Of a stretch of 64,000 nt of DNA, positions 6,172-38,078 are shown piece by piece. The stretch's first letter is position 1; each line of letters begins with the position of its first letter. Position numbers and translations under genes: made by a program. This DNA is from Thioalkalivibrio paradoxus ARh 1. GTDB lineage: Bacteria; Pseudomonadota; Gammaproteobacteria; Ectothiorhodospirales; Ectothiorhodospiraceae. The stretch lies in contig NZ_CP007029.1 of assembly GCF_000227685.2 (NCBI RefSeq), positions 2,082,501 through 2,146,500 on the forward strand, read 5' to 3'. The notes under the pieces were generated by a model that worked only from the letters and a program-made list of their open reading frames with translations, was not told the DNA's origin and did not search any database.

Positions 6172-9100
6172 ATGCGGACCTTTGCGCGCCAAGTTCTTGT
6201 GGCGATGCTTCTATCGCTTGCGTTTGCCGCATCGGCTGCGGCCAACGGGTTGTTCGTGCCGCTAGAGGCCGCGCAGGCCGACAGTGCCGCAGCTCTGGGC
6301 AGCGTCCCGCTTGCCGCCCACCGGGTGCGTGACGTAGCGATCGATCCGGCTTATCTGGCCCAGCGGATCGCACCTCCCGATGTCGACCACGTCCAGGGGC
6401 GCCTTGGCCTTGTCCCGGCGCCGGCGACGGTTCGGCTCGAGCTTTTCCCAGGGATCGTCGCCGATCTGGAACGCACCTCGATCTCGGAGGCCTTCGGCGG
6501 CGGGTTCGTCTGGACCGGCGAGGGCCGTGGCCCCTCGGCCGCCTGGGCCGACCTAGTGATCCGCGACGGACGCATCACCGGCCATGTCACGGTCTTCGGC
6601 ACCGAACCGCGCGCCTACCGCATCGATCCTTTACCGAACGAGGGTCTGCATCGGATCACCGAGCTGGACAGCGCCCTGTTCCCCGCCGAGGCGCATCCGC
6701 GGGGCGAGGGCCATGATCACGGCCATGATCATGAACACGGGCATGATGACCACGACCACGCCCATGAGACCAAGGCCGAGCACCTGCCGCAGGGCAGCTC
6801 CGCCGCCGAGAACACGACCATTGTCGATGTGTTGATCACCTATACCAGCGCCGCCGCCGCCATGGTCTCCGATATCCAAGCCCAGGCCAATCTGGCGATC
6901 TCGCTCTCCAACACGGCCTTCACACGCAGCGGCGTGCTGGTCCAATATCGCCTCGTCGGCACGCATCTGGTGTCCGGCTACACCGAGCCCAGCAGCTATA
7001 GTACCCTTTTACACGACCTGACCAACGGCATCCTGGCGCCGTTCCAGACCGTCCATACCCTGCGCAACAGCACCGGCGCGGACTTGGTCGCCCTGCTGGT
7101 GGACAACCAGCAGTACTGCGGGATCGCTTGGCGGCCGAACATGCCCTCGGCGAGCACGGCCCAATGGGGGTACTCAGTCACGACGATCGGCTGCATCAGC
7201 AACCACACCTTCGCCCATGAACTGGGGCACAACTTCGGCCTGCACCACGACCGCTATGTCAGCGATCCGGCGCCGAACACGGCCTACAACTATGGCTATG
7301 TCAACTTGGCCGGGCGGTTCCGGACGGTCATGGCCTACCAGAACCAGTGCACGGACTCGGGCTTTTCCTGCACGCGGATCAACAACTTCTCGAACCCCGC
7401 CGTCCTTCATGAAGGCCGAGCCACCGGGATCCCGGCAGGGACGACCGGTGCCGCCCATGCCCAGCGCTGGAAGAACGAGGTGCGCGAGATCATCGCCGCC
7501 TACCGGCCGGCCGCCGGACCGCCGAACAACCTGTTCGCCAACCGGATCAATATCTCGGTGCCGGGCACGGTAACGGGGACTAATGTCGGCGCAACGTCCG
7601 AACCCGGGCAGCCGACGATTGCCACATCGAACAGCAATAACGCCGTGTGGTGGCGCTTCACCCCTGCGAACAACTGCGCGGCGACCATCGACACTTTCGG
7701 CAGCAACTTCGACACGACGCTGGCGACCTTCACCGGCTCGGCGGTCAATGCGCTGACCCAGGTTGCGGCCAACGACGATGCCGGCGGTGGCTTACAATCG
7801 CGCGTGGAGTTCCAGGCAATGGCCGGCACTGAATACCAGATCGCCGTCGCAGGTTACAACAACGCCACCGGCAACATTACGCTCAACGTCGACTGCCCGG
7901 TACAGGGACCTTCCGTGACTACCAATCCTGCAACTAGCATTGGACAAGATAGCGCCACACTGAACGCCACGGTAAATCCGAATGGTGTGGAGTCTGCTTA
8001 TCTCTTTCAATATGGAACGACAACGAGCTACGGCACTACTATTGACGGGGAAAACATAGGTGCTGGCACGAATACACAGAATGTTTCTCGAACGATTACT
8101 GAGTTAAGTTGTGGCACCACATACAATTTTCAAGCTGTGGCGGGCAACGTTAATCAGCAGCTAGCCTATGGTGGAAACCAAACGTTCACCACCCTTGCCT
8201 GTGCCACCCGCATCATTCGCCTAACTGGAGGCCTGTCTTTCGGCGATGTCACCGTTGGGCAAAGCAGCCAACGCACACTAACTATCCACAACGACGGCAA
8301 CAGCACTCTGAACGTCTCGTCGATCTCGTACCCCAGCGGCTTCAGCGGCAACTGGAGCGGAAACATCCCCGCCGGCAGCTCACGCGATGTCACGGTGACC
8401 TTCGCACCCACCGCCGCACAGAACTATTCCGGTTCCTTGACCGTCTACTCGAACCGAACCTCGGGTACCAACACCCTGACCGTGTCCGGTGTAGGCGTTG
8501 TTCCTTCCCAGCCGCCCTCGGCGGTAACCAATGCTGCAACCAACATTACTATGCACAGCGCCACGCTGAATGCGTCCATCAATCCGAACGGGACTCCCAC
8601 CATCTATTGGTTCGACTACGGACCCACGATCAGCTACGGCTCGACTACTGCTGCTCACTCTGCGGGCTCTGGCACCTCCAACGTCAGTGGCACTGACACC
8701 GTTACAGGCCTCCAGTGTGGCACCACGTATCATTTCCGGGTGCGCGCGAGCAACTCCGACGGGTTCGACAGCAATGGAGACGACGAGACTTTTGCTACTG
8801 ATGCCTGCGACGCGCCAACCACACCAAGTAATCTTTCGGCCATAGATGTTGAGCCCACATCGGCTCGCCTTGTCTGGGAGGCCTCAACGGACAACAGCGG
8901 CTCTGGGCTGGCGGGGTACAAGATCGAGTATTGCACCGGAGCTGAATGCTCAGACTTTTTCGAGATCGGCACCGCCGTCGGCACAGACGTAACTATTGAA
9001 CCCCTGAGTCCCGATAGGACCTACCGCTTGCGCGTTCGAGCCTATGACAACGATGGTAACCACAGCGAATATTCCAACATCGTCAGCTTTACCACCCCGC

Positions 9101-10659
9101 TACCCGAGGTTACACCGGTCCAACTACAAAATGGTGTCGCCGTACACGAGCTCAGTGGTGACCAGGGCAGCCAGCAATTCTTCAGTATCGAAATCCCTGC
9201 CGATCGCACCGAGCTGCGCGTGGAAATCTGGGGGGGCAGCGGCGGCATTGTCGACCTCTACGTCCGCCACGGGCAGGTGCCCACCTTGGATAATTGGGAC
9301 TGCCGACCGTACTTATGGGGCAGCGAGGAAACCTGTGTCGCAACGAATCCTCAGGCCGGTACGCATTATGTGATGATCCATGGATACGAGGCGTACACGG
9401 GTCTATCCCTGCGGGCAACCTACACCCCAGCGCAGGGCGCCGTGTGCGGCCCCGACGACGACCATACCGTCACCGCCGGTCCGCAACCGGGCGCCACCAA
9501 GGAAGTGGCCGGCTGCCGTTCAATCTTCGTGGAGAACGGGGTGATCGTGCCGGCCACGGGTAGCCTGGAACTGGTCGCGCGCGAGCGCATCGTGTTCCGG
9601 CCAGGTGTCCGGGTTATTGCGGGTGGCCAGTTGTCGGCCCGAGTAGATTCGACTTATCCATCGTCTGCGTCCCCGGCATTGGCCGAACAGGGTTCGGTGG
9701 CCGTGGGAGCGCCGGGCGCAGAATCTACGCGGGCCACTCGGTGGTGGATACCCGAAGCCGACGATGCCCGCAGGCGTGAAGGCGTGGCAGCTACAGCGAC
9801 CGAGGAACGCGCCGGTGCTCCGATTTCGATCGGGGACGGCGATCCGGGCAGCGTTGAGGAAAGCGATTTGACCGCACCGGCCGGGCTCGACGCGATACCC
9901 GGCGATGGCTCGGTGGCGCTGCGCTGGGAAACCGTGCCGGAAGCCGACAGGTACCATGTGTATTGGTCGCGGAATCCCGGCATTCACCCGTTCACGGCTG
10001 CTTCTTACGAGGGTTTCCTGGGGAATGTGCCCGACGCGCGAGCGATCGTCGCCGACCTGGAGAACGATCGCGACTACTTCTTCGTAGTCACCGCCACCCG
10101 CGGGGGCCGCGAGAGTGCGGCCAGCATCGAAGTCGGCGCGACTCCGGAAGCAGGTCCGGTGCTGATTGCCGGCCGCTACGCTTTGGAAGCGCTCGACGCC
10201 CCGACCGTGGTGGATCTCGATACCGGGCTCGAATGGCGGCGCTGTGCGCTGGGCCAACAGTGGGATGGCGCTGCCTGCACCGGTTCCGCCGGTTCCTACA
10301 GCCACGCTGAGGCCCAGCAGGCAACGGCCGCGTTCAACCGCTCGCGTGCGTCGGAAGAACCCCAATGGCGGTTGCCCGAGGTCGGAGAACTCCAGGGGCT
10401 CGTGTACTGCACCAGCGGCACTCCCGCGCACTTCCCCGATGGCACCGGGTGCTGGGGCAGCCATGGCATTCCGACGCTGGAGCCCACGGTGTTCCCCACC
10501 GGCTCCGCCGCCGGCGGCTGGTTCTGGTCGCGCTCCACTCACACTGATGGCCAGGCCTGGGGCGTGGACTTCAACCGCGGCACCGCCCAGCCCTACCAGG
10601 CTTCCGCCTTCAGCGGCGTGAGGCTGGTGCGGCCGGCTTCTGAGGGGGATAACGAATGA
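6172..10659 (+). CDS. Secreted metzincin-type metalloprotease with C-terminal cassette
   Basis: The product is 1495 aa from ATG 6172, chosen because GGAGG precedes it and a signal peptide follows (MRTFARQ... to AASAAANG). An in-frame ATG at 6088 overlaps the previous gene but would bury the signal peptide. A propeptide-like region contains a striking His/Asp-rich stretch (about residues 175-204). The catalytic domain has HExxHxxGxxH (H349, E350, H353, G356, H359) and a VMAY Met-turn at M387, which is diagnostic of metzincins (reprolysin-like). Downstream come a pre-peptidase-type domain, Fn3-like units, a Hydin/ASPM-like beta domain (SFGDVTVGQSSQRTLTI), Fn3, a second pre-peptidase (PPC) domain, a coathanger-like domain, Fn3 and Lcl_C. 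It is probably an extracellular zinc protease with binding modules. The substrate is unknown. Confidence 0.88.
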   Translation: MRTFARQVLVAMLLSLAFAASAAANGLFVPLEAAQADSAAALGSVPLAAHRVRDVAIDPAYLAQRIAPPDVDHVQGRLGLVPAPATVRLELFPGIVADLERTSISEAFGGGFVWTGEGRGPSAAWADLVIRDGRITGHVTVFGTEPRAYRIDPLPNEGLHRITELDSALFPAEAHPRGEGHDHGHDHEHGHDDHDHAHETKAEHLPQGSSAAENTTIVDVLITYTSAAAAMVSDIQAQANLAISLSNTAFTRSGVLVQYRLVGTHLVSGYTEPSSYSTLLHDLTNGILAPFQTVHTLRNSTGADLVALLVDNQQYCGIAWRPNMPSASTAQWGYSVTTIGCISNHTFAHELGHNFGLHHDRYVSDPAPNTAYNYGYVNLAGRFRTVMAYQNQCTDSGFSCTRINNFSNPAVLHEGRATGIPAGTTGAAHAQRWKNEVREIIAAYRPAAGPPNNLFANRINISVPGTVTGTNVGATSEPGQPTIATSNSNNAVWWRFTPANNCAATIDTFGSNFDTTLATFTGSAVNALTQVAANDDAGGGLQSRVEFQAMAGTEYQIAVAGYNNATGNITLNVDCPVQGPSVTTNPATSIGQDSATLNATVNPNGVESAYLFQYGTTTSYGTTIDGENIGAGTNTQNVSRTITELSCGTTYNFQAVAGNVNQQLAYGGNQTFTTLACATRIIRLTGGLSFGDVTVGQSSQRTLTIHNDGNSTLNVSSISYPSGFSGNWSGNIPAGSSRDVTVTFAPTAAQNYSGSLTVYSNRTSGTNTLTVSGVGVVPSQPPSAVTNAATNITMHSATLNASINPNGTPTIYWFDYGPTISYGSTTAAHSAGSGTSNVSGTDTVTGLQCGTTYHFRVRASNSDGFDSNGDDETFATDACDAPTTPSNLSAIDVEPTSARLVWEASTDNSGSGLAGYKIEYCTGAECSDFFEIGTAVGTDVTIEPLSPDRTYRLRVRAYDNDGNHSEYSNIVSFTTPLPEVTPVQLQNGVAVHELSGDQGSQQFFSIEIPADRTELRVEIWGGSGGIVDLYVRHGQVPTLDNWDCRPYLWGSEETCVATNPQAGTHYVMIHGYEAYTGLSLRATYTPAQGAVCGPDDDHTVTAGPQPGATKEVAGCRSIFVENGVIVPATGSLELVARERIVFRPGVRVIAGGQLSARVDSTYPSSASPALAEQGSVAVGAPGAESTRATRWWIPEADDARRREGVAATATEERAGAPISIGDGDPGSVEESDLTAPAGLDAIPGDGSVALRWETVPEADRYHVYWSRNPGIHPFTAASYEGFLGNVPDARAIVADLENDRDYFFVVTATRGGRESAASIEVGATPEAGPVLIAGRYALEALDAPTVVDLDTGLEWRRCALGQQWDGAACTGSAGSYSHAEAQQATAAFNRSRASEEPQWRLPEVGELQGLVYCTSGTPAHFPDGTGCWGSHGIPTLEPTVFPTGSAAGGWFWSRSTHTDGQAWGVDFNRGTAQPYQASAFSGVRLVRPASEGDNE
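8812..10640 (+). repeat. 1.83-kb direct repeat, copy A (C-terminal cassette)
   Basis: This copy matches 13121-14949 at a constant offset of 4309 bases. By eye I found about seven substitutions (three near 8957-8978, one near 9616 giving Ile/Val, two near 10202-10221, one near 10362 giving Gln/Glu). It encodes Fn3, PPC, the coathanger-like domain, Fn3 and Lcl_C. Identity this high across a whole multidomain block, next to unrelated catalytic N-termini, implies recent duplication or gene conversion. Confidence 0.95.
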
Positions 10660-10716
10660 ATCCGTTCGGGAAAATGGGTGACACACTCCATTGCGGGAGT
10701 CAACGCCTGACCGCAA
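10655..10716 (+). repeat. Conserved segment spanning the stop codon (pairs with 6087-6148)
   Basis: About 62 bases starting aatgaatcc recur after both the first and second large genes, with blocks aatgaatcc, aatgggt, acac, tccatt and gcctga shared. The third gene lacks it: after its Lcl_C domain the sequence changes to cccggcaggcgaccaatga. The segment marks how far the ancestral duplicated unit extended. Confidence 0.6.
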
Positions 10717-11510
10717 CGATCTTGGATCAGAGTCGGGAGGAAAGGGCACACTACTGGCCTGCGGGTCGAGAGTTGTGGACCAGCAGTCACGGGCGGTATC
10801 CCTCGATCTCTGGCGCGGCTAGTATGCGCCTTCAACTCACGCGCAACGCTACCGCGAGCCAGCTGGCGCCCCGGTTCTGGTGCCATGCCCATGCAGCCGC
10901 GCCGGCGCAGGCAAGGAAAGGGTATGGGTCGACTGGCTCAGGTGCTGACCAAGCTGGAGCGCCAAACAAGAACGCAGTGCATTCGGAGCTCGTGAGTGGG
11001 GAACCTGCTACTTCATACTGTTCGCCTACTTGGGCCACTCTTGCACCAGGTTCAGCATCAGCACCACCGTCGCGACCAAGCACTTCCCGACCTCAGATGC
11101 CTCGCCAAGGCTACGTTCTAGCTGCCCACCAACGCTGTCCGCCGTGGGCAGGCCGTCGTTCGCGGCTCTCCCGCGTTGGGCGGCGCAGCACGATCTGGAT
11201 ATTCCACTGGCGGGATATCAAGCCTCGGACTTTTCTGGGCTGCATGGGGTTGAAGGACGTCGCAGGGAAGTGGATGCACGTCACCCTGTGTACCGGCCAA
11301 AACCTGCGCATGTTCCAGCGGGCAATTGGCCATTCGTTGCGCCTCAGCAAAGATATGGTGCAGGCGAAGCATCAGTCAGGTCCCTGGTCCGGGTGGTCAT
11401 ACTGTCTGGCCAAGGTCGGGGGAGATTGCCACCCGCCACCTCTCGTGGCTTCCAGTCTGAACGACTATGAGGCGGGAAAGCGCTCGGGTCCAGCACCCAG
11501 TAAGACGTTC
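10717..11510 (+). other. Intergenic stretch without a credible gene
   Basis: About 800 bases separate the two large protease genes. An 879-base frame is open on the plus strand (10656-11534), but its product has no recognisable domain, no good ribosome-binding site and a composition unlike its neighbours. Short antisense frames look equally random. The only clear element is a GAGGT ribosome-binding site at about 11513 for the next gene. It could be decayed coding or mobile DNA. Confidence 0.5.
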
Positions 11511-11527
11511 AAAGAGGTCACTGCTAC

Positions 11528-14500
11528 ATGCTAACCAAGCGCCTGCCCCATCGTACTTCTCCAACGGTATCCTCAAAACACACTGGGCCCATCGCTTTTA
11601 AGGTGCTCTTGTTCCTGCTGATTTTATTTTCGCCCCCCGTATTAGCGGGGAATTTCGAGCGACCAGTGACCGGTCACACTGTAACCCAAGAGTATAACGC
11701 CTACGGACAAGTGGTTCCCGGGCATTATCACACCGGAACGGACTATTGGAGCAGCAACCGCGAGGTGCGCGCAACAAGTCACGGGGTGGTGGTTCGAAAA
11801 CAAATAAACGGTGAAGGTTGCGCTCCAAGCTGCAATGGCCCCGGTTGCGGCTGCCTTGATCGTGGATTGGGTAATACCGTAATCGTTGAGCATACACTCA
11901 CCAATGGAGAAAAAGTCTATAGTCTTTATGCTCATCTACAACATTTTCAAAGCGGCATTAACATTGGAACCTGTGTGCAGCCAGGCACCCTTATTGGGGA
12001 AATGGGTGGGTCAGGATATGGGCTTTCAAACTATTATGGCGCCCATCTTCATTTCGAAATTAAGAACGCAAATGTCCTTCATAACCCATCCGGTTCAGGC
12101 CAGTATTGGGGGTATACTCCCGGAAATGCGAACACCTACGGTTACCAAGACCCATATGCCTATATAGTTTCGCCCGCCAACCAGGTAGCGGTGTCTTGCG
12201 ATATTGCTCAGGCGCCGACCGTCACAACCAACCCGGCAACCGGCATAAGCCAAAACAGTGCGACGCTGAACGCCACGGTAAACCCGAATGGCGCAAGCAC
12301 TATGGGAGGATTTCAGTACGGAACGACCTCAGCCTACGGCTCGATAGTTACTTTCGCCGACGCAGGATCAGGTACTTCTGCCATCAGTCGCAGCAGCACC
12401 GTCTCGGGCCTTGCATGTGGAACCCAATACCACTTTCGGGCATACGCCTTGAACTCGGCAGGTACAACGTTTGGAAACAACCAAACGTTCACCACCAGTG
12501 CCTGCCCCGTCCAGGCGCCAACGGCTAGCACCAATCCTGCAACGAGTATCGGGCAAAACGCGGCGACCCTGAACGCCTCGATCAACCCGAATGGCGCCAG
12601 CACCTCGTACTGGTTCGAGTACGGACTCACGACCAGCTACGGCTCCACCACGCCAAGTCAGAGTGCGGGCTCCGGCACCTCCAGTGTTAGCGGCAGTCGG
12701 TCCATTTCTGGCCTGCAGTGCGGCACTACGTACAACTTCCGCGTACGTGCCAGCAACTCCGGCGGCACCAGCAATGGAAGCAACCGAACCTTCACCACCA
12801 GTGCCTGCCCGGTCGACGCGCCAACGGTGACTACCAATCCTGCAACGAGTATCGGGCAAAACGCGGCGACCCTGAACGCCTCGATCAACCCGAATGGTGC
12901 CAGTACGACTTACCGATTCGACTTTGGAACCACGACCAACTACGACTCCGACACGACAAGTCAGAGTGCGGGCTCCGGCACCTCCAGTGTCAGCGGCAGT
13001 CAAGTCATTTCTGGCCTACATTGTGGCACTACGTACCATTTCCGCGTACGTGCCAGCAACTCTGGCGGCACCAGCATTGGAAGCAACCGAACCTTCACTA
13101 CCAGTGCCTGCCCGGTCGACGCGCCAACCACACCAAGTAATCTTTCGGCCATAGATGTTGAGCCCACATCGGCTCGCCTTGTCTGGGAGGCCTCAACGGA
13201 CAACAGCGGCTCTGGGCTGGCGGGGTACAAGATCGAGTATTGCACCGGAGCTGAATGCTCAGACTTTGTCGAGATCGGCACCGCCGGCAGCACAGACGTA
13301 ACTATTGAACCCCTGAGTCCCGATAGGACCTACCGCTTGCGCGTTCGAGCCTATGACAACGATGGTAACCACAGCGAATATTCCAACATCGTCAGCTTTA
13401 CCACCCCGCTACCCGAGGTTACACCGGTCCAACTACAAAATGGTGTCGCCGTACACGAGCTCAGTGGTGACCAGGGCAGCCAGCAATTCTTCAGTATCGA
13501 AATCCCTGCCGATCGCACCGAGCTGCGCGTGGAAATCTGGGGGGGCAGCGGCGGCATTGTCGACCTCTACGTCCGCCACGGGCAGGTGCCCACCTTGGAT
13601 AATTGGGACTGCCGACCGTACTTATGGGGCAGCGAGGAAACCTGTGTCGCAACGAATCCTCAGGCCGGTACGCATTATGTGATGATCCATGGATACGAGG
13701 CGTACACGGGTCTATCCCTGCGGGCAACCTACACCCCAGCGCAGGGCGCCGTGTGCGGCCCCGACGACGACCATACCGTCACCGCCGGTCCGCAACCGGG
13801 CGCCACCAAGGAAGTGGCCGGCTGCCGTTCAATCTTCGTGGAGAACGGGGTGATCGTGCCGGCCACGGGTAGCCTGGAACTGGTCGCGCGCGAGCGCATC
13901 GTGTTCCGGCCAGGTGTCCGGGTTGTTGCGGGTGGCCAGTTGTCGGCCCGAGTAGATTCGACTTATCCATCGTCTGCGTCCCCGGCATTGGCCGAACAGG
14001 GTTCGGTGGCCGTGGGAGCGCCGGGCGCAGAATCTACGCGGGCCACTCGGTGGTGGATACCCGAAGCCGACGATGCCCGCAGGCGTGAAGGCGTGGCAGC
14101 TACAGCGACCGAGGAACGCGCCGGTGCTCCGATTTCGATCGGGGACGGCGATCCGGGCAGCGTTGAGGAAAGCGATTTGACCGCACCGGCCGGGCTCGAC
14201 GCGATACCCGGCGATGGCTCGGTGGCGCTGCGCTGGGAAACCGTGCCGGAAGCCGACAGGTACCATGTGTATTGGTCGCGGAATCCCGGCATTCACCCGT
14301 TCACGGCTGCTTCTTACGAGGGTTTCCTGGGGAATGTGCCCGACGCGCGAGCGATCGTCGCCGACCTGGAGAACGATCGCGACTACTTCTTCGTAGTCAC
14401 CGCCACCCGCGGGGGCCGCGAGAGTGCGGCCAGCATCGAAGTCGGCGCGACTCCGGAAGCAGGTCCGGTGCTGATTGCCGGCCGCTACGCTTTGGAAGCG

Positions 14501-28457: not shown

Positions 28458-29251
28458 CAGAGCTCGTCCACCATCTCGCCCGAACGGCGCAGGAACAGGC
28501 GCACACCGAGCGCGGACAGCATGAGACCAAGGACAAGCGGCAGCCAAAGCGAGGCCCAGTCTGGCATGGTGCCGTACACCATCAGGCCCTGATAGGCGGA
28601 CATGAGAGGATACATAGGGTTGAACCGCATCGCCGACGCAACCGCCTCCGGGAGAATGGCCGCCGGATAGACGATGGGAGTCAGCCAGAACCAGAAGAAA
28701 AGGACCACGGTGACCGTCTGGCCGACGTCGCGAAAGAAAACATTCAGGATGCCGAGGGTGACCCCAAGGCCCAGGGCGAACAGAAGCTGGACTGCCAGCA
28801 ATGGGATCATGGCCAGCAGCACCCAACCGGGAAAAGCGCCCACCACAACCAGGAAAAGGAGGAACAACACAAAGATCAGGACGAAATTCACCAGAGCGTT
28901 GAGGGTCAGGATCACTGGAAGGGAGAGCCGTGGAAAGCTCACCTTCTTCAGCAGGTTGGCGTTCTCGATGAACATCGTCTGGCTGCGCCCGACGATCTCC
29001 GCGAACAGGCCCCAGGTGATGATGCCGACGGTCAGGTAAATGCTGTAGGCGAACTGGCTCTGTACCCCCGGCAACTTGGCCTGCATGATCTGGGAGAAGA
29101 TGAGTGTGTAGACCACGATCATGCTGAGCGGCTGAATGACGTTCCAGGCGCCGCCGAGCATGGAGCGCCGGTACTTCGACTGGAACTCGCGCTTGACGCT
29201 GCCGAGAATGAAGCCGCGAAAATTCCAGACGGGTCTGACGATACCGATCAT
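28457..29251 (-). CDS. wzm: O-polysaccharide ABC exporter permease
   Basis: The product is 264 aa from ATG 29251, preceded by GGAG at eight bases. A longer frame to 29350 would add 33 polar residues atypical of the family. It has six hydrophobic segments in the ABC-2 arrangement and the conserved start FRGFILGSVKREFQSKYRRSMLG, here split by the first cytoplasmic helix. It forms the membrane channel partner of the downstream Wzt ATPase. Upstream (29252-29480) is a non-coding gap before a GT4 gene on the same strand, so transcription may restart here. Confidence 0.93.
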
Positions 29252-29480
29252 AGCTTCGCTCCGTGCGTGCTGGCGGGGGGCGCGCCGCTCCCTGGGGACC
29301 AACGACTCACCTCCCCGCCCTGCGATTTCGATCGCCGATCCGCTCGCCATGAACAGTCATGAGCTATCCGGCCTTTAGCCAAGAAATCAGGCACATGGGA
29401 GGCGGCCCCTTTTGCAGCGGCCGGAGTATAGCGTATTCAGTTGACCAACTCCGGGCATTTTCGGTGCATGCCACGATTCT

Positions 29481-30644
29481 TCAGACCACTGCTCTGTAGA
29501 CATCCAGCGTCATCCTGGCCGTACGGTCCCAGGTAAACTCCCGCGCCCGGGCCAGGCCCGATTCACTCAGCCGGGCGGCAAGACCCGCCGCGTCCAGCAC
29601 CTGACGCATGGCATCCGCGATCTCGCCCGTGTCCGTGGGATCCACCATGAGCGCCGCCCCCTCAGCCACCTCCGGCAGTGCGGTAGTCCGCGAGGCCACG
29701 ACCGGGACACCGGCGGCAAAGGCTTCGAGCAGGGGAAGACCGAAGCCCTCGTGCAGGGAGACGAACAGCAGGGCGGCGGCACCAGCAAACACAGCGGGCA
29801 GGTCCGCGTCCGGCACATAGCCGAGCCAGCGCAGGCCAGCATCACGCTCCGCCCGCAGTTCGGCCATCACGCTGTCACAACCCCAACCGGCCCTGCCCGC
29901 CACCACGAGCGGCACGTCTCGTCTCAGGTATTCAGGAAGCCGTCGGTGGGCGGCGATCAACCGTGTCAGATTCTTGCGCGGCTGCAGTGTCCCCACGAAC
30001 AGGAAATAGGCATCCGGAAGCCGATGATGTTGCCGCACGCGTTCGAGATCCTCGCCCCCCGGAGGTTCGAACCAGCGACTGTCCACACCGAGCGGGATGA
30101 CATGGATGCGCTCGCCGGGCACGCCGAACCAGCGTTCAATCTCCATGCGGGAGTATTCGGAGATAGTGATCACCCGGTTGGCCCACTGCACCGACCGCCG
30201 CCACAGGGCGTTGCTGATGCGTTTCAGGGGATAGGACACCCATTCGGGATGCGCCAGCGGGATGGCATCCATCACCGTGGCCACCACGGGCGTGCCACGA
30301 ACCCAGGGCACCAGATGATCGGTGGCATGGATCAGCTCCAGCCCCTCCCTGGCCATCGCTCGCAGGCCCGGAAATGACGCGCCGGTCAGCAGGGCGCCCA
30401 GGGCCTGATGGCGGAACCGCCCGACGTCCCGGGCACTTGAGTCACCAAGGAGCCCCGCCGGTGGACCGTAGACAAAGGGCCTCAGATCCATAGCCACCGT
30501 GCCAGCCAGTCGCGCCCCCAGTTCGCGGCTGTAGGCCCCAATACCATCGACCCCCTGGCCCGCCAGGCCGTGGGCCAGCGCCGTGACGCCAAACGCGACA
30601 CGCAACGTCCCCGCCGGCAGCCGTGCAGACGTATGTTCGCTCAC
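29481..30644 (-). CDS. GT4-family glycosyltransferase
   Basis: The product is 387 aa from GTG 30644, which overlaps the stop of the upstream reductase gene as GTGA. The open frame extends further upstream only as a shadow of that gene. Features of a GT-B enzyme are visible: GVDGIGAYSREL near the N-terminus (acceptor-side loop), VGTLQPRKNLTRLI near residue 215 and E-x7-E in LHEGFGLPLLEA near residue 295. It resembles the mannosyl/rhamnosyltransferases common in Gmd/Rmd clusters. GDP-D-rhamnose made by the two upstream genes is a likely donor, but specificity cannot be read directly. Confidence 0.88.
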   Translation of the reverse strand: MSEHTSARLPAGTLRVAFGVTALAHGLAGQGVDGIGAYSRELGARLAGTVAMDLRPFVYGPPAGLLGDSSARDVGRFRHQALGALLTGASFPGLRAMAREGLELIHATDHLVPWVRGTPVVATVMDAIPLAHPEWVSYPLKRISNALWRRSVQWANRVITISEYSRMEIERWFGVPGERIHVIPLGVDSRWFEPPGGEDLERVRQHHRLPDAYFLFVGTLQPRKNLTRLIAAHRRLPEYLRRDVPLVVAGRAGWGCDSVMAELRAERDAGLRWLGYVPDADLPAVFAGAAALLFVSLHEGFGLPLLEAFAAGVPVVASRTTALPEVAEGAALMVDPTDTGEIADAMRQVLDAAGLAARLSESGLARAREFTWDRTARMTLDVYRAVV

Positions 30645-31540
30645 GCCGACTCCGGGGCCTCGTACATCCAGCGCAGCGTCTCCCGCAGCGGGGTCCATGG
30701 CAGCTCCCCAACCGCCGCCTCCAGCCGGGCCCGGCTGCCGTGAAGGCGCTTGACCTCGTTGGCTCGGACGAAATCGGGGTTCACGTGAACCTCGATCCGG
30801 TAACCGGCGATCTCCGCCATCATCTCCAGGATCTGCTCCAGGCTCACCGCCTGCCCGGAACACACGTTGAAGGTCTGACCGGCGGGCGCGTGCCGGATGA
30901 GCCGCAGATAGGCATCCACCACAGAGCGCACGTCCGAGAAATCCCGCGCCACGTCCAGGTTGCCCAGTTCGATCACCCGGCTGCCGCGTCGGAAGTGATC
31001 AACGATCTTGGGCAGGAGGAACCGCCCCGATTGCCCGACACCCGTGTAGTTGAACGGACGCACCGTGACGATGGGCAGCCGCCCGGTCCAAAGCGCGGCC
31101 ATGTATTCCATGGCCAGTTTGCTCACGGCGTAGTCGTTGGCCGGCCGTACCGCGCTGGTCTCTGTCAACGGCCCGCCGGCCACGTTGCCGTAGACATTGG
31201 CGCTGCTGGCCAGGAGCACGCATGCCGGCGCGTGACCACCTGCCGCCACGGCATCCAGCAGGTTGCGCGTTCCGATCAGGTTCACGCGATAGAAATCGGC
31301 GGCATCGGCATGCCCCACAAAGGAGATCGCCGCCAGATGGACCACTACATCGGGCTGTACTTCCTCCACCACCCGTGACAACCCCGCCCGATCCTCAAGG
31401 TCCACGGCAAAATGCTCCGGAGACCCCGATGCATGGGGTGCCAATCCGAAGACCCGGAAACCGGCTGCGGCCAGTGCGCGTCCCAGATAGCGCCCAGTGA
31501 AGCCGCTCAGACCCGTAACCAGGGCACGCCGACTCGCCAT
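30641..31540 (-). CDS. rmd: NAD(P)-dependent sugar epimerase/reductase, probably GDP-4-keto-6-deoxy-D-mannose reductase
   Basis: The product is 299 aa from ATG 31540, one base after the gmd stop. It is an extended short-chain dehydrogenase with GLSGFTG dinucleotide-binding motif (G10, G13, G16), a Ser in LLASSANVYG and the catalytic Y-x-x-x-K in NDYAVSKLAMEY. Directly after gmd, such proteins usually reduce the 4-keto intermediate to GDP-D-rhamnose (Rmd). An alternative is a GDP-fucose or talose branch enzyme, but a Fcl-type epimerase/reductase would normally be longer and of a different pattern. The assignment of D-rhamnose is therefore context-based. Confidence 0.82.
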   Translation of the reverse strand: MASRRALVTGLSGFTGRYLGRALAAAGFRVFGLAPHASGSPEHFAVDLEDRAGLSRVVEEVQPDVVVHLAAISFVGHADAADFYRVNLIGTRNLLDAVAAGGHAPACVLLASSANVYGNVAGGPLTETSAVRPANDYAVSKLAMEYMAALWTGRLPIVTVRPFNYTGVGQSGRFLLPKIVDHFRRGSRVIELGNLDVARDFSDVRSVVDAYLRLIRHAPAGQTFNVCSGQAVSLEQILEMMAEIAGYRIEVHVNPDFVRANEVKRLHGSRARLEAAVGELPWTPLRETLRWMYEAPESA

Positions 31541-31541
31541 C

Positions 31542-32582
<1,041 letters not shown>

Positions 32583-32823
32583 TCAGCGACTCCCTATGAT
32601 CTGCATGCTCCCTAACTCGGGGGGCCTGTCGGCGGCCTCGTGCGCCGCCCAAAGGACGCTGATTATGCCCGAGTTCGCCGACCTTGCGACGCCATAGCCC
32701 ACGACTGCCCGACGGGATCCCCCGACCGCCCACCAGATCACCCCGTCATGACCCGTGTAATTGACTACACGCTTTTTACGAAGAACCCCCGGCGGTCCGT
32801 CTTCCATCGCTGGAGGGCGCCGA

Positions 32824-34236
32824 TCAGGATCTGCAACCCACCCGAAGAATCCACCACGCCGCGAACACGCTCAGCGGGACGAAATGCAGCAGGAGCCGGT
32901 TGACGCTGGTGAAACTCACCGCCCACTGCGACGCATCCGTGAACGTGAACAAGAACCCCATGAGTAGTAACGCCACGAACAGCGTGTACACCGGAATGCG
33001 GAGCACGGCGTCGCGGCCGGCTCGCACCGCACCATAGGTCAGAACGGGAAGGAGCACGAACCAAAGCAGATGCCAGCTTCCGAAAACGAAAAGTGCCTGG
33101 ACCAAGGCCTTCCAGACTTCAGGCTCATAGGCCAACTGCACGGCAATGAGCCCAGGGATCGAAATCTGGTCGAGCCAGAGACTCCATCCGTGCACGGCAA
33201 AGCCAGCCGCACCCTCCCCGGTCACCTGTCCCCATGCGAGAACCCCGGTCGCGAGGAATGCTGCGGCCAACAGAACGTACAGGGGGCGAACCCAAGCCAG
33301 CACGAGCCCCCCAAGTAACGGCACGAGCCAAACCCAGCCCTCTACCTTGAGGGTCGGCAACGCGAGCAGCATCGCACCAGCGAGCAGGCCTTGAATGCCT
33401 TCGCGGCGCTGCCACCAGGACCACAGCGCGACACCGCCGAGACCAATTGCCGCAGCGAGCCAGAGATCGGCGTAGCCGGCCAAGGCAGTATGCACACCCA
33501 GCATCGGAAGCGACACGACGACATACGCGACCAGCATGGCTTCCCAGGGCGTTCCCCCGAAACGTTTCACCTGTCCGTAGAGCCCGAGCAGCAAGGCCAC
33601 CACAGCGCCCAGCCACGGCAACAGAGCCAACCCATCAATCCAGACTCCGGAGACGAGCGCAATCCAGGCGGGGATCAGCGAGACGGTCTTCGGATAATGG
33701 TGGGCGTCGATCGTGTAGGCGCCCGTAACCTCGCTCGCAAGCCACTCCGCGCGAGGCACAAACGGCACCAACGTCCCTGCGTACGCCCACAACTCTGCCC
33801 GAAGCGCCCAGACCGTCCAGGCGTCCCAGGGTGTCAACGGGCGCCACAGCACTTCCGCGCCGAGAACCCCCAGTCGCAGAGCAATCAGGGCTGCCAACCC
33901 GTACCAGACCCAGCGTTGCCAGCCTGAAGCGAATCCGGGCACAGATCCTTGCGAGGCCAAGGCCGATCGCCCACGTCTCCGGTAGGACCACAGGATCCAG
34001 ACGCCCACGAGAAAAAACCAGGTTGACAGCGTCAGAACCACGTTCAGGCCCAGTCCGAGCGAATCCCAGATCCGGAGCAGCAGAACCGTCAGGAAGAGGC
34101 CCAGGAAATAGCCATAACCCAAGGCGATTGGCCAGCCCAGCGGCTCACCTCCCGAACCCGAGCGACGCAGCCAAAGCGCGGTCGCGATCCACGGCAGCAG
34201 CACGGCGACCAGCGCTGCGAGAAACACCGAAATCAT
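32824..34236 (-). CDS. Polytopic membrane protein, glycosyltransferase-like (unassigned)
   Basis: The product is 470 aa with about twelve hydrophobic segments throughout. A periplasm-facing loop after the third or fourth helix has WRPLTPWDAWTVWALRAE (about residues 130-148), with acidic and aromatic residues reminiscent of the GT-C superfamily loop, and YTIDAHHYPKT follows. No family was recognised with certainty. It lies between the gmd-led cluster and ybaK, overlapping ybaK by 4 bp (start 34236, ybaK stop 34233). A role in glycan transfer or lipid-linked sugar handling is plausible but not shown. Confidence 0.65.
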   Translation of the reverse strand: MISVFLAALVAVLLPWIATALWLRRSGSGGEPLGWPIALGYGYFLGLFLTVLLLRIWDSLGLGLNVVLTLSTWFFLVGVWILWSYRRRGRSALASQGSVPGFASGWQRWVWYGLAALIALRLGVLGAEVLWRPLTPWDAWTVWALRAELWAYAGTLVPFVPRAEWLASEVTGAYTIDAHHYPKTVSLIPAWIALVSGVWIDGLALLPWLGAVVALLLGLYGQVKRFGGTPWEAMLVAYVVVSLPMLGVHTALAGYADLWLAAAIGLGGVALWSWWQRREGIQGLLAGAMLLALPTLKVEGWVWLVPLLGGLVLAWVRPLYVLLAAAFLATGVLAWGQVTGEGAAGFAVHGWSLWLDQISIPGLIAVQLAYEPEVWKALVQALFVFGSWHLLWFVLLPVLTYGAVRAGRDAVLRIPVYTLFVALLLMGFLFTFTDASQWAVSFTSVNRLLLHFVPLSVFAAWWILRVGCRS

Positions 34237-35248: not shown

Positions 35249-35368
35249 CCTCACTTGCAGGTTTGCCGCTGCCAATGGACGCGCCCTTCGTCGAGGCTTG
35301 GGGCGTTTCGGAACGCAGCACGAACCCGATCAAAAACGAAGCCCGAACTTCCCATTGGAGGTAGTGCC

Positions 35369-35692
35369 ATGGCAAACCCGATTCAGCTCGACGTCTCCCG
35401 GCTTCTCGGCTTTCGCATCTGCGATCGAGACGACTCCCTGCAGCAAGACCTCCTTGCAAGCCATGGCCCTGGGGCGAAAGTCGGCCGCAAACCTGTAGTA
35501 CATTCCGGGGTCGTTGCCGGTGCGAAGGTCGGGACCAAGTTCGGCCAGAAGCCGATCGGCGGGGTCCTGATCGGCGCCAAAATTGGCGGCAAACCCGGCT
35601 TCGTGAAGCATGAAGCCCGAGACATCAGTGCTCGGATTGGTGCCAAAGTCGGCATCGTGAAACCGCGAATCGCAGCCACTGGCACGCGTTGA
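35369..35692 (+). CDS. Small Lys/Gly-rich repeat protein, candidate RiPP precursor
   Basis: The product is 107 aa from ATG 35369, supported by GGAGG seven bases upstream. No known family was recognised. Residues 1-32 (MANPIQLDVSRLLGF...) look like a mixed-charge helical leader. From residue 33 the sequence changes to a cationic region with four imperfect repeats: GAKVGRKP (35-42), GAKVGTKFGQKP (51-62), GAKIGGKP (69-76) and GAKVGIVKP (91-99). That region has 10 Lys and 5 Arg against one Glu and one Asp. There is a single Cys (C18), in the leader part. A leader-plus-repeated-core layout just before a peptide-hydroxylase-like gene and an ATP-grasp gene fits a modified-peptide precursor. Alternatively it is a small basic nucleic-acid-binding protein. 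Confidence 0.72.
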   Translation: MANPIQLDVSRLLGFRICDRDDSLQQDLLASHGPGAKVGRKPVVHSGVVAGAKVGTKFGQKPIGGVLIGAKIGGKPGFVKHEARDISARIGAKVGIVKPRIAATGTR

Positions 35693-35982
35693 GCAGCGCG
35701 AACGAACACAGTTTTCTGGAATGTAGCACTACCAAGGATGCTGGATCTCGTGCGCAGCGGGACGCATGTGCCCCTGATCCAGGTCTGCCACCGGATTGGC
35801 TTGCGGGAACCCACCCCTTGCCCTGGCAACGCCGACGCGTCTACGTTTCTTCGCTAGGTGGGCACATGGCTGTCACCACGACCCTGAACCTCAGCGAATC
35901 GCACCGAGGCCTACAACAGGGTCCTTCGGCTCTGGCGCCGACCCACTCCCGGCTGCATCCCGGGCCTGGAGGGCCTTGACCC
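35693..35982 (+). other. Spacer with a possible second short ORF (35866-35979)
   Basis: Between the repeat protein and the HExxH gene are 290 bases. A frame starting TTG at 35689 overlaps the repeat-protein stop and runs to TGA 35979. Inside it, ATG 35866 (weak AGGTGGG upstream) would give a 37-aa peptide starting MAVTTTLNLSES and rich in Gly, Pro and His. There is no independent evidence that it is translated, and it shares no repeat with the upstream protein. No hairpin with a T-run was seen, so all three genes could be one transcript. Confidence 0.35.
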
Positions 35983-36972
35983 ATGACGATCCACCTGCAG
36001 TTCGAGCCCGATCCCGGGCGCGCGGTCGCTCTGGACCGCCGAATGCACCAGGAACTCGGAAACAGCCTCACAGAGGTCTGCGGTCAGGCACGCGGGTCGG
36101 TGGCCTTCGATGCACCGTGTATGGAAGCGTTGATCGATGGTCTCCGGGGGGATGCCGTCCACGCGCCGACGACGTTCGGGCTGTACTACGATCTGGTGCT
36201 GGCCCTGCTCGGTGGGGATCGAGGCGAAGCCGAGCGCCTGTTTGCGATCCTGGCTGAGGTTGCCCCGGTCTCAACGGAGCCCGCGATTCGCGGATTGGAA
36301 GCCCCGGGAGCCTCTTCTTGGAGCGACCTATATCGTGCCAAGATGTCCGCCGATTTGTCCGATGGCATCGAGTTCCTGCCCCCCTCCCGAGAGGTCGTGG
36401 GTCGCTTTCGCGAGCGGCACGCGATCGCAATGGCGATGATGGACCGCGCCGTGCCGGAACTCGCGGCGGAGGTACGCGCATTGGTGCGTGACACCGTCTG
36501 CGTTACCGGGGCACCCGATGCGAAGATGTCGTTCCAGGGCGGCTCGCACTACCAGCTGTGGGGAGCCCTGTTCCTGAATGCCGAGTACCACGACAGCCCG
36601 CTGGCACTGGCCGAGGTCATCGCCCACGAGAGCGCACACAGCCTTTTGTTCGGGTTCTGCATTGAGGAACCGCTGGTGTTCAACAAGGACGAGGAACTGT
36701 ACCCCTCGCCGCTACGGGAGGATCCACGGCCGATGGACGGAATCTACCATGCCACCTTCGTTTCCGCCCGCATGCACTGGGCGATGTCGCGCCTTCTGGA
36801 CTCCGGGATGCTCAGCGCCGAGGAACGGCGGTTGGCAGCAGCCGCGCGAGACAACGACGCGGAAAACTTCGATGCCGGCCACAGGGTCGTGGCCGAACAT
36901 GCGCGTATGAGTGGATTCGCTGCGGAGTTGATGGAGGGCGCGCGAGCGTACATGGCCGTAGCAGCCCGATGA
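35983..36972 (+). CDS. HExxH protein resembling aKG-HExxH-type peptide beta-hydroxylases
   Basis: The product is 329 aa. The N-terminal ~170 residues are helical. The motif VIAHESAHSLLFG gives H215-E216-x-x-H219, followed about 25 residues later by SPLREDPRPMDGIYHATFVSARM, with conserved R245, R249-P250, G253 and H256. This pair of motifs matches my recollection of the HEXXH putative peptide-modification family (TIGR04267), now named 2-oxoglutarate/HExxH peptide beta-hydroxylases in NCBI. Metalloprotease features such as a third zinc ligand and Met-turn are absent. GGAGGG lies about ten bases before the ATG. It overlaps the ATP-grasp gene by 4 bp. The likely substrate is the upstream repeat protein (inference). 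Confidence 0.75.
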   Translation: MTIHLQFEPDPGRAVALDRRMHQELGNSLTEVCGQARGSVAFDAPCMEALIDGLRGDAVHAPTTFGLYYDLVLALLGGDRGEAERLFAILAEVAPVSTEPAIRGLEAPGASSWSDLYRAKMSADLSDGIEFLPPSREVVGRFRERHAIAMAMMDRAVPELAAEVRALVRDTVCVTGAPDAKMSFQGGSHYQLWGALFLNAEYHDSPLALAEVIAHESAHSLLFGFCIEEPLVFNKDEELYPSPLREDPRPMDGIYHATFVSARMHWAMSRLLDSGMLSAEERRLAAAARDNDAENFDAGHRVVAEHARMSGFAAELMEGARAYMAVAAR

Positions 36973-37940
36973 TCGTGTTGCTGACGACGCGCACCCACAG
37001 TCGCACGCACGCGGCCGTGGAGCAGCAGACCCAAGCACGCCTGCGGGCCCTGCCCTATGAACGGGCATTTCACGCGCTGCGACTGCCTCGAGCGACCTAC
37101 ATCTTCACCGACCTCGACCGCCTGAACTTCTGGGATCTGGAGCTTGCCGGCCGCCTTTACCGCCTTCTGGCCGACGCTGGCCTGAGGGTGCTCAACGATC
37201 CCGCGCGAGTGCTGACACGATTCCGGCTGTTGCGCAGGCTGTTCGAACGGGGCGCCAACCGGTTCGAGGTCTGGCGTGTCGAGGAAACGCGCGAGCCCAC
37301 GCGATACCCCGTTTTTCTGCGCACCGAATCAGCTCATCGAGGTGCCCTGAGCGGCCTGCTCCATGCGCCGGACGAGGTGAGTGCCGAGATTACCCGGGCG
37401 CTCGCTGCCGGGATTCCTGAGCGTGAGCTTCTGTTGGTGGAATTTCGGGCGCAACCGCTTGCCAACGGCATCTACCGCAAGCTGGCCATGTTCCGGGTCG
37501 CTGACCGCATGGTGCCCACGCTCAGCGCACACCAGCAGGACTGGCACGCCAAGATCGGCCAGAGCGGCGTGGCCGGGCAAGCATTATACGACGAGGAGTA
37601 CCGGCTGCTCACCGAGAACCCCTATCGGGAGGTGATCCGCAGCGCTTTCGATACCGGCCATACCGAGTACGGGCGCGCGGACTTCGGAATCGTGGACGGA
37701 AGGGTCGAGGTGTACGAAATCAACACCAACCCCTGGACCGCCCCGGTGAACGAGCACCCCTTTCCGATCCGACTGGAGACGTCGAAGCTCTTTTTCCGGC
37801 TGTACGGTGACGCCTTGCGCGAGATCGACACCGGCCGAACGGGTTCCTCCGTGCGGCTGCCCGATAAACGGACCTGGCGCCAATGGGTCGGCGATATGAT
37901 CGCAGGACGCACTCTGCGCCGCACTCCCCGGATGCCCTGA
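36969..37940 (+). CDS. ATP-grasp-like protein coupled to the HExxH gene
   Basis: The product is 323 aa. The C-terminal half has the metal-binding strand pair of ATP-grasp enzymes: ADFG with D238 and EVYEINTNPW with E250 and N252 (the E-x-N pattern). Earlier, RYPVFLRTE (about 112-120) and LLLVEFR (about 154-160) resemble the nucleotide-binding Lys/Arg strand and hinge, and YRKLAMFRVADRMVP fits the central strand. The first ~80 residues form a pre-ATP-grasp Rossmann-like part (YIFTDLDRLNFWD). ATP-grasp proteins ligate a carboxylate to an amine or thiol via acyl phosphate. Start and upstream stop overlap (ATGA), implying co-translation. The reaction and substrate are unknown, and the precursor lacks the acidic residues expected for graspetide cyclisation. 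Confidence 0.78.
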   Translation: MIVLLTTRTHSRTHAAVEQQTQARLRALPYERAFHALRLPRATYIFTDLDRLNFWDLELAGRLYRLLADAGLRVLNDPARVLTRFRLLRRLFERGANRFEVWRVEETREPTRYPVFLRTESAHRGALSGLLHAPDEVSAEITRALAAGIPERELLLVEFRAQPLANGIYRKLAMFRVADRMVPTLSAHQQDWHAKIGQSGVAGQALYDEEYRLLTENPYREVIRSAFDTGHTEYGRADFGIVDGRVEVYEINTNPWTAPVNEHPFPIRLETSKLFFRLYGDALREIDTGRTGSSVRLPDKRTWRQWVGDMIAGRTLRRTPRMP

Positions 37941-38003: not shown

Positions 38004-38078
38004 TGGTGGGCGGTACTGGGATCGAACCAGTGACCCCTGCCGTGTGAAGGCAGTGCTCTACCGCTGAGCTAACCGCCC
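38004..38078 (-). tRNA. tRNA-Val (anticodon CAC)
   Basis: On the minus strand a full cloverleaf can be folded. The acceptor 5' GGGCGGT pairs with 3' ACCGCCC, the D-arm contains AGCTCAGCGGTAGAGC, and the anticodon stem CTGCC/GGCAG encloses TTCACAC with anticodon CAC (reads GTG). The T-arm is CACTGGTTCGATCCCAGT. The CCA is encoded (38004-38006). It has its own promoter and terminator. Confidence 0.97.

Follow-up and report, generated by a model that had tools for sequence, protein, structure and literature searches.

The stretch analyzed here (the window; 64,000 nucleotides of Thioalkalivibrio paradoxus ARh 1, contig NZ_CP007029.1, positions 2,082,501 to 2,146,500) carries a same-strand set of three open reading frames (ORFs), i.e., those of a 107-aa putative precursor peptide with a leader-like N-terminus and four K-x-G repeats, a 329-aa protein with an HExxH motif, and a 323-aa ATP-grasp protein, as read from the ORF list and the sequence (Table 1). 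The HExxH and ATP-grasp ORFs share 4 bases, a GGAGG motif (35357–35361) lies ahead of the precursor start, and a GGAGGG motif lies ahead of the HExxH start. A first reading of these letters (the sequence-only reading) had proposed a candidate undescribed system for a ribosomally synthesized and post-translationally modified peptide (RiPP); the positions it gave for the three ORFs, the GAK(V/I)G...KP repeats, H215-E-x-x-H219, the ATP-grasp residues D238, E250 and N252, and the 4-bp overlap were all confirmed. The proposal itself is now supported by gene linkage and by the family score of the HExxH protein. Since precursor, oxygenase-family protein and ATP-grasp occur together in other genomes as well, their status as a cassette unit appears strongly supported, and the gene set is very probably the minimal cassette of an undescribed RiPP class.

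Table 1. Features of the cassette in the window.
Feature	Position	Strand	Basis
Precursor peptide, leader plus four K-x-G repeats, 107 aa	35369..35692	+	ORF, sequence, homologues adjoining HExxH genes of other genomes
Leader, residues 1–17, MANPIQLDVSRLLGFRI	35369..35419	+	Columns L7, D8, L12, G14 and F15 conserved in 32 aligned precursors
Core repeat 1, GAKVGRKP, residues 35–42	35471..35494	+	Sequence; K-x-G enrichment
Core repeat 2, GAKVGTKFGQKP, residues 51–62	35519..35554	+	Sequence; K-x-G enrichment
Core repeat 3, GAKIGGKP, residues 69–76	35573..35596	+	Sequence; K-x-G enrichment
Core repeat 4, GAKVGIVKP, residues 91–99	35639..35665	+	Sequence; K-x-G enrichment
HExxH protein, predicted alpha-ketoglutarate-dependent peptide hydroxylase	35983..36972	+	TIGR04267 score; fold of 8s5f
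ATP-grasp ligase of an unnamed family	36969..37940	+	Model resembles ArgX/LysX/RimK/Ddl; D238, E250 and N252 invariant

The HExxH protein passes the TIGR04267 model (aKG-HExxH-type peptide beta-hydroxylase domain) with 103.2 bits against a cut-off of 40 (E = 1.6e-29), in line with the family named in the sequence-only reading, and matched no Pfam model. Within its motif (H215-E-S-A-H219), H215, E216 and H219 were invariant in 30/30 aligned HExxH proteins. A profile of 30 relatives matched two solved sequences, i.e., ChlH 8s5f (E = 3e-8) and 22nu (E = 1.1e-5), and the RP..G..HA block of these relatives aligned with that of 8s5f. Moreover, Foldseek returned five matches at E ≤ 0.001 for the AlphaFold2 model (mean predicted local distance difference test score, pLDDT, of 94.9), all of them HExxH entries (four 8s5f chains and 22ob), with 8s5f as the best (E = 5.9e-11, template modeling (TM) score 0.67). 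An ordinary metalloprotease was rejected, as neither a peptidase model in NCBIfam or Pfam nor a peptidase fold at E ≤ 0.001 was found. By score, metal site and fold, the protein is thus predicted to be an alpha-ketoglutarate-dependent peptide hydroxylase. Hydroxylation of His, Asp, Phe, Gln and Pro is known for this family, according to the available text of PMC13060819, and PflC and PosC additionally cleave the backbone (available text of PMC12636437).

The precursor peptide has no useful-score match to any Pfam or NCBIfam family, and was the top match in its own genome of a precursor profile that was built including the window sequence (E = 1.1e-16). Precursors from related loci, with lengths starting at 33 aa, carry a leader motif of approximately [IV]xLDxxKLLGFK, followed by a core whose start was set by convention at 11 residues past the leader match; short examples are a 36-aa peptide of Methylohalomonas lacus and peptides of 56 and 57 aa from Thioalkalivibrio sp. 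ALJT. Across 43 precursors, K[IVLM]G occurred 113 times and KxGxK 111 times, compared with means of 10.2 (maximum 20) and 6.0 (maximum 14), respectively, over 500 within-core shuffles, so that the K-x-G repeat pattern is present more than expected by chance. K.G.{0,2}K was found in 41/43 cores, and half of the Lys-to-Lys intervals (112/223) had a spacing of 4. The Lys of K-x-G is preceded by Ala or Ser in 77 and followed by Ile, Val or Leu in 107 of the 158 repeats. An acidic residue, in contrast to these preferences, occurs at any given offset from the repeat Lys in at most 17/158 repeats (the best offset being +3), and the cores of two precursors (L014 and L050) are free of Asp and Glu. This lack of an acid at a fixed core position makes a peptide-internal Lys-Asp/Glu bond unlikely as the general reaction. 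The C-terminus is variable as well, with 14 different last residues among the 43 precursors (Ala being the commonest, n = 12).

The sequence-only reading had named repeat peptides beside both enzymes in other genomes as support for its proposal, and such linkage was indeed found. Searched genome-wide in the window's order, the HExxH protein was present in 4/47 genomes, with a single match in the window's own genome (one contig, 3.76 Mb). A scan of species genomes with two peptide patterns yielded 30 loci, mostly from Proteobacteria by title and one from a Planctomicrobium bin, with an adjacent leader ORF in 28/30 and an ATP-grasp in 29/30. The HExxH profile at E ≤ 1e-30 occurred in 6/369 genomes of a class sample and in 8/398 genomes of a phylum sample, three of the latter via weaker relatives (L060–L062). 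Eight further loci from these whole-genome samples had an ATP-grasp in 8/8 and a leader ORF in 7/8 cases. In the class sample, the ATP-grasp of the window's type (window-type; E ≤ 1e-20) was likewise found in 6/369 genomes, five of which are common with the HExxH genomes; the sixth HExxH genome (G391) carries a cyanophycin-synthetase-like (CphA-like) protein, and the sixth ATP-grasp genome is G386.

Overall, 40 distinct loci were compared (the 30 scanned ones, the window, L005, L046–L050 and L057–L059), after dropping the duplicates L006 (= L012), L007 (= L008) and L045 (= L014) and leaving the weaker relatives L060–L062 outside the count. A leader ORF was found in 37 of them, giving 43 precursors, all of them encoded on the same strand as the HExxH ORF and no more than 557 bases from it, with several copies in five loci. 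The three loci missing it (L017, L036 and L048) are each at a contig end, and for L048 a leader ORF lies at the edge of a second contig, the final residues of which are identical to those opening the HExxH contig, so that this locus is probably split over two contigs. An ATP-grasp was present in 39 of the 40 loci, within 1.5 kb in 38 and 5.5 kb off in L032. These counts include incomplete or divergent members, i.e., an ATP-grasp cut by the locus end (L032), a divergent one (L029; 194 bits), a CphA-like gene split over two frames (L046), an ATP-grasp match with one stop (L048, genome G168), a locus whose HExxH gene is a fragment and whose core lacks K-x-G (L037), and a weak leader (L024; 9.8 bits). 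A conserved leader, a variable core and a small precursor adjoining modifying enzymes in 37/40 loci amount to a RiPP-type layout.

Searching the 369 genomes with the precursor profile, which missed the G250 precursor at its threshold, gave six matches below E = 1e-4; four weak matches (E 0.002–0.03; G327, G405, G296 and G166) were taken as chance. The sequence-only reading held that homologues of the small protein without linkage to either enzyme would speak against it: this does not apply to five of the six matches, which lie beside an HExxH gene, and does apply to one peptide of the window's own genome, ca. 850 kb off. This orphan second precursor of 45 aa (L101:5022–5156, also in L099) has the leader RLNMSRLLGFRL and the core LGAKIGSKLGKKP, and by eye sits between formyltransferase-like and glycosyltransferase-like genes, with no HExxH or ATP-grasp match in the surrounding 11 kb.

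For the window ATP-grasp, neither NCBIfam (searched up to E = 1) nor Pfam gave a match, and its counterpart in L013 had only a weak Ddl match in NCBIfam. The structure model of the window protein (mean pLDDT 91.1) resembles ArgX, LysX, RimK and Ddl with a TM score of only ca. 0.5 and 12–17% identity. In 20/20 aligned relatives K171, K195, D238, E250 and N252 were invariant, which bears out the three residues picked in the sequence-only reading. Copies of this family also occur in other settings. A paralogue in the window's own genome (L071:5256–7046; C1, ca. 178.4 kb) lies near P450-like, acetyltransferase-like and methyltransferase-like genes; the 13 kb around it showed neither an HExxH match nor a K-x-G peptide. 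Genome G185 has a second copy near acyl-ligase-like and glycosyltransferase-like genes, and that of G386 (L073:958–1908) faces a 499-aa TIGR04267 protein of a different subfamily (1951–3450), with no precursor recognised at this locus. Among 72,556 plasmid records two copies were found, one in an O-antigen-type locus. In three cases the gene is directly 3′ of an oligosaccharide-flippase gene, i.e., in L104:2837–5278 (Paracoccus sp. MC1862 plasmid, flippase annotated), L018:4911–7378 (flippase by Pfam) and L021:6996–9431 (flippase by eye); these neighbors hint at a tie to surface glycans.

Beyond what the sequence-only reading described, roughly one locus in three has, in place of the window's ATP-grasp, one that resembles cyanophycin synthetase. 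Of the two kinds, the window-type was present in 26 of the 40 loci and the CphA-like one in 13 (neither in 1), and never both together. The CphA-like partner has ca. 600–660 aa where complete, and positions 140–534 of its profile align with the cyanophycin synthase 7wac (E = 3.4e-71). On the cyanophycin-synthetase model NF010623, the L027 protein reaches 240 bits and so stays below the cut-off of 877, and in the alignments the MurE-like P-loop site of these partners is degenerate rather than intact. On a maximum-likelihood tree of 41 HExxH proteins, in which the long branches (L047–L050 and L060–L062) were all included, the CphA-like group needs two changes, with two forced by starred branches; its second pair (L026 and L046) groups at 100/100 with L029, the bearer of the divergent ATP-grasp. 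On this tree, the two kinds were thus swapped at least twice. Such repeated exchange of the ligase suggests that the ATP-grasp reaction is an essential step. Two loci hold two ligase genes each: L024 has two window-type copies (4643–5605 and 6988–7950), one on each side of the HExxH gene, and L030 has two CphA-like genes (6957–8924 and 9566–12766), the second in one frame with a part that by eye is adenylate-forming-ligase-like.

The association appears specific to this oxygenase subfamily, judging from the 16 TIGR04267 loci in the 398 genomes: the five scoring at least 248 bits on the subfamily profile all have an ATP-grasp and a K-x-G precursor, and the other 11 have neither ATP-grasp kind within ca. 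1.5 kb. At L060/L080 (L060:7100–7342), a precursor with the same leader type and with LGRLFSKRG twice in its core adjoins an HExxH gene without an ATP-grasp, possibly representing a sister RiPP. Because the leader is kept and the core is changed at this locus that has no ATP-grasp, the leader seems to go with the oxygenase and, judging from this one contrast, the K-x-G-x-K core with the ATP-grasp.

No further gene family appears to be tied to the cassette. When the ORFs of 32 loci that were 90 aa or longer were clustered by BLAST (>80 bits; small or divergent families would escape), the only clusters in at least four loci were HExxH, window-type ATP-grasp, CphA-like and antisense frames. Pfam scans of neighboring proteins (92/102 type-I and 52/54 CphA-type proteins; figures among the 25 commonest families, with the near-identical loci L005 and L006 both contributing) yielded no family in more than five members. 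Major facilitator superfamily transporters (PF07690), the most frequent export candidate, were found in 4/92 type-I neighbors. A dedicated transporter, protease, immunity gene or regulator was rejected, since neither the clustering nor the commonest Pfam families showed one to be recurrent; the protease, exporter and immunity genes that the sequence-only reading failed to see in the window are thus not recurrent at related loci either. Polysaccharide genes adjoin 11/21 window-type loci inspected by eye, and glycosyltransferase family 2 was found in 5/92 type-I neighbors, with no glycosyltransferase among the 25 commonest families of CphA-type neighbors. Viral contigs searched with two patterns gave no match, so that viral spread is unsupported.

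Within the window, the cassette is flanked by an opposite-strand gene with a YbaK-like look (by eye) and a tRNA-Val gene (38004–38078). The latter, just 3′ of the ATP-grasp gene, is a possible insertion site for a cassette with such a patchy distribution. Upstream on the other strand lies a polysaccharide-type region (28460–34236), whose genes look by eye ABC-2-like, glycosyltransferase-like and GDP-mannose-dehydratase-like. Between the precursor and HExxH genes, a 37-aa ORF (35866–35979) was rejected as a second precursor, having no leader motif, no K-x-G and no Pfam or NCBIfam match. A simple scan revealed no promoters or terminators.

We favor, with a probability of roughly 0.7, a RiPP cassette in which leader-guided hydroxylation would be combined with ATP-grasp amide formation at lysines. 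The oxygenase would recognise the precursor leader and would then probably hydroxylate each repeat, most likely on the beta carbon of either Lys or the bulky residue that follows. The ATP-grasp would make an acyl phosphate from an external acid and form amide bonds with the repeat lysines, a step that is put forward only tentatively. Given the lack of a conserved acid in the core, a small molecule is a likelier source of the carboxylate than a peptide Asp or Glu. Maturation and export would rely on functions elsewhere, or the product might stay in the cell.

Several observations weigh against this reading. The window-type ATP-grasp is also found apart from this HExxH subfamily, the tie between core and ATP-grasp is drawn from the single contrasting locus L060, the own-genome precursor match ca. 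850 kb from the cassette is unlinked, neither a protease nor an exporter recurs near the cassette in the clustering or the commonest Pfam families, and Asp or Glu is present somewhere in 41/43 cores, though at no conserved position. The nearest known relatives LysX, ArgX and RimK, moreover, couple a carboxylate of a peptide or protein to a free amine. CphA, too, joins a peptide or protein carboxylate to a free amine, i.e., the reverse of the amide formation proposed here (available text of PMC9427784).

The main rival, which keeps the RiPP cassette and has the ATP-grasp activate a peptide carboxylate (the C-terminus or one freed by oxidative cleavage) and add a free amino acid or amine in the manner of RimK, LysX/ArgX and cyanophycin synthetase, hence fits the known chemistry of the relatives better than our favored reading, the nearest solved folds being ArgX, LysX, RimK and Ddl. 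It is nevertheless judged unlikely, as the precursor C-terminus is unconserved, the lysines at every fourth residue would go unexplained and the repeat pattern is fitted worse. A graspetide-like peptide, in which the ATP-grasp cross-links Lys to Asp or Glu within the precursor and the oxygenase hydroxylates a linked residue as in corallotide, has a precedent in the latter, where an ATP-grasp and a 2-oxoglutarate oxygenase are paired on KxxxD repeats (available text of PMC13097080). At least one acid in 41/43 cores would suit it as well; with the scarcity of acids at any offset, two acid-free cores and a window ATP-grasp lacking an NCBIfam match, we regard it as quite improbable. A standard graspetide was rejected, because no described graspetide synthetase family was matched and the core has no conserved acidic acceptor.

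It might also be that oxidative backbone cleavage at the repeat Gly or Ala is the main activity of the HExxH enzyme, freeing short amidated Lys peptides that the ATP-grasp caps or joins. That no protease gene recurs nearby would agree with this, as does the cutting by PosC and PflC at a small residue, with variants indicating that Ala and Gly favor cleavage (available text of PMC12636437); the characterized reactions on larger residues are hydroxylations, however, and single-repeat cores such as that of L014 offer little to cut, which leaves this option very improbable. Least probable is that the small protein is no substrate at all but has a structural role, binds metal or polyanions or acts as a partner subunit, with the enzymes modifying something else. 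A homologous peptide standing alone ca. 850 kb off in the same genome and the occurrence of the ATP-grasp family in other gene settings, some with glycan genes, would fit such a role. They contrast with the same-strand precursor directly beside the oxygenase gene in 37/40 loci (several copies in five) and with a leader that is conserved while the core varies.

The cassette would define a new RiPP class by the pairing of an HExxH oxygenase with an ATP-grasp, and would bring with it two families, those of the precursor and of the window-type ATP-grasp, that are unnamed in the Pfam and NCBIfam scans. The repeated exchange of the ligase provides two unlike enzymes for finding the product, and the CphA-like exchange hints that storage-polymer synthesis and peptide tailoring are connected by an evolutionary route. 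A more speculative and rather unlikely extension is a ribosomal counterpart of cyanophycin, i.e., an encoded Lys/Gly backbone whose lysines (often every fourth residue) would have hydroxylations nearby and would then be capped or bridged by ATP-grasp amides, two ATP-grasp lineages, one of them related to cyanophycin synthetase, having replaced each other at one and the same step. The boldest version would have one Lys of the K-x-G-x-K pair oxidized to a carboxylate and joined to the other Lys, which would explain the absence of a conserved core acid. In the openly licensed PubMed Central literature, no description of the HExxH and ATP-grasp pairing was found, and the searched motif strings occurred in no paper; the oxygenase is of a known RiPP enzyme family, and the precursor, the pairing and the ligase exchange are undescribed in this searchable literature.

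The closest known systems are those of the alpha-ketoglutarate HExxH peptide hydroxylases (TIGR04267/IPR026337: the HExxH domain of ChlB, BpmH, PflC/PosC and PesO), which have the hidden Markov model, motif and fold in common with the window protein, and in which the precursor is likewise encoded beside the enzyme gene. The pfl cluster resembles the cassette in having no protease gene found nearby, according to the available text of PMC12636437. In the available texts on these hydroxylases, their partners are radical S-adenosylmethionine enzymes, a multinuclear non-heme iron oxidative enzyme (MNIO), an MNIO-nitroreductase or asparagine-synthetase-like proteins, and no ATP-grasp is named among them. 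The term "ATP-grasp" is absent from the main text of PMC13060819 and PMC12452194, and the term "HExxH" from that of PMC8939145. The window ATP-grasp shares its fold and the metal-binding D/E/N residues with LysX/ArgX and RimK, and differs from them in its low similarity and in matching neither Pfam nor NCBIfam. The alternative partner, which the window lacks, shares with the cyanophycin synthetases CphA1 and CphA2 the alignment to 7wac, and its degenerate MurE-like P-loop recalls CphA2, where this loop is lost (available text of PMC9427784); it differs from CphA in scoring far below the cut-off, in adjoining a RiPP-like precursor and in the loop RDRGEG where CphA has GNHGRG. Finally, corallotide (CorA-D, graspetide group 15) likewise involves an ATP-grasp and a 2-oxoglutarate oxygenase on repeated Lys motifs of one precursor, and differs in its KxxxD core with an acid partner, TIGR04187 synthetase, PF13640 oxygenase and beta-lactamase-like partner; it is confined to Corallococcus, as far as the available text of PMC13097080 goes. 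By analogy, corallotide shows that the joint action of an ATP-grasp and a 2-oxoglutarate oxygenase on Lys repeats is real chemistry elsewhere, with other enzymes and another core.

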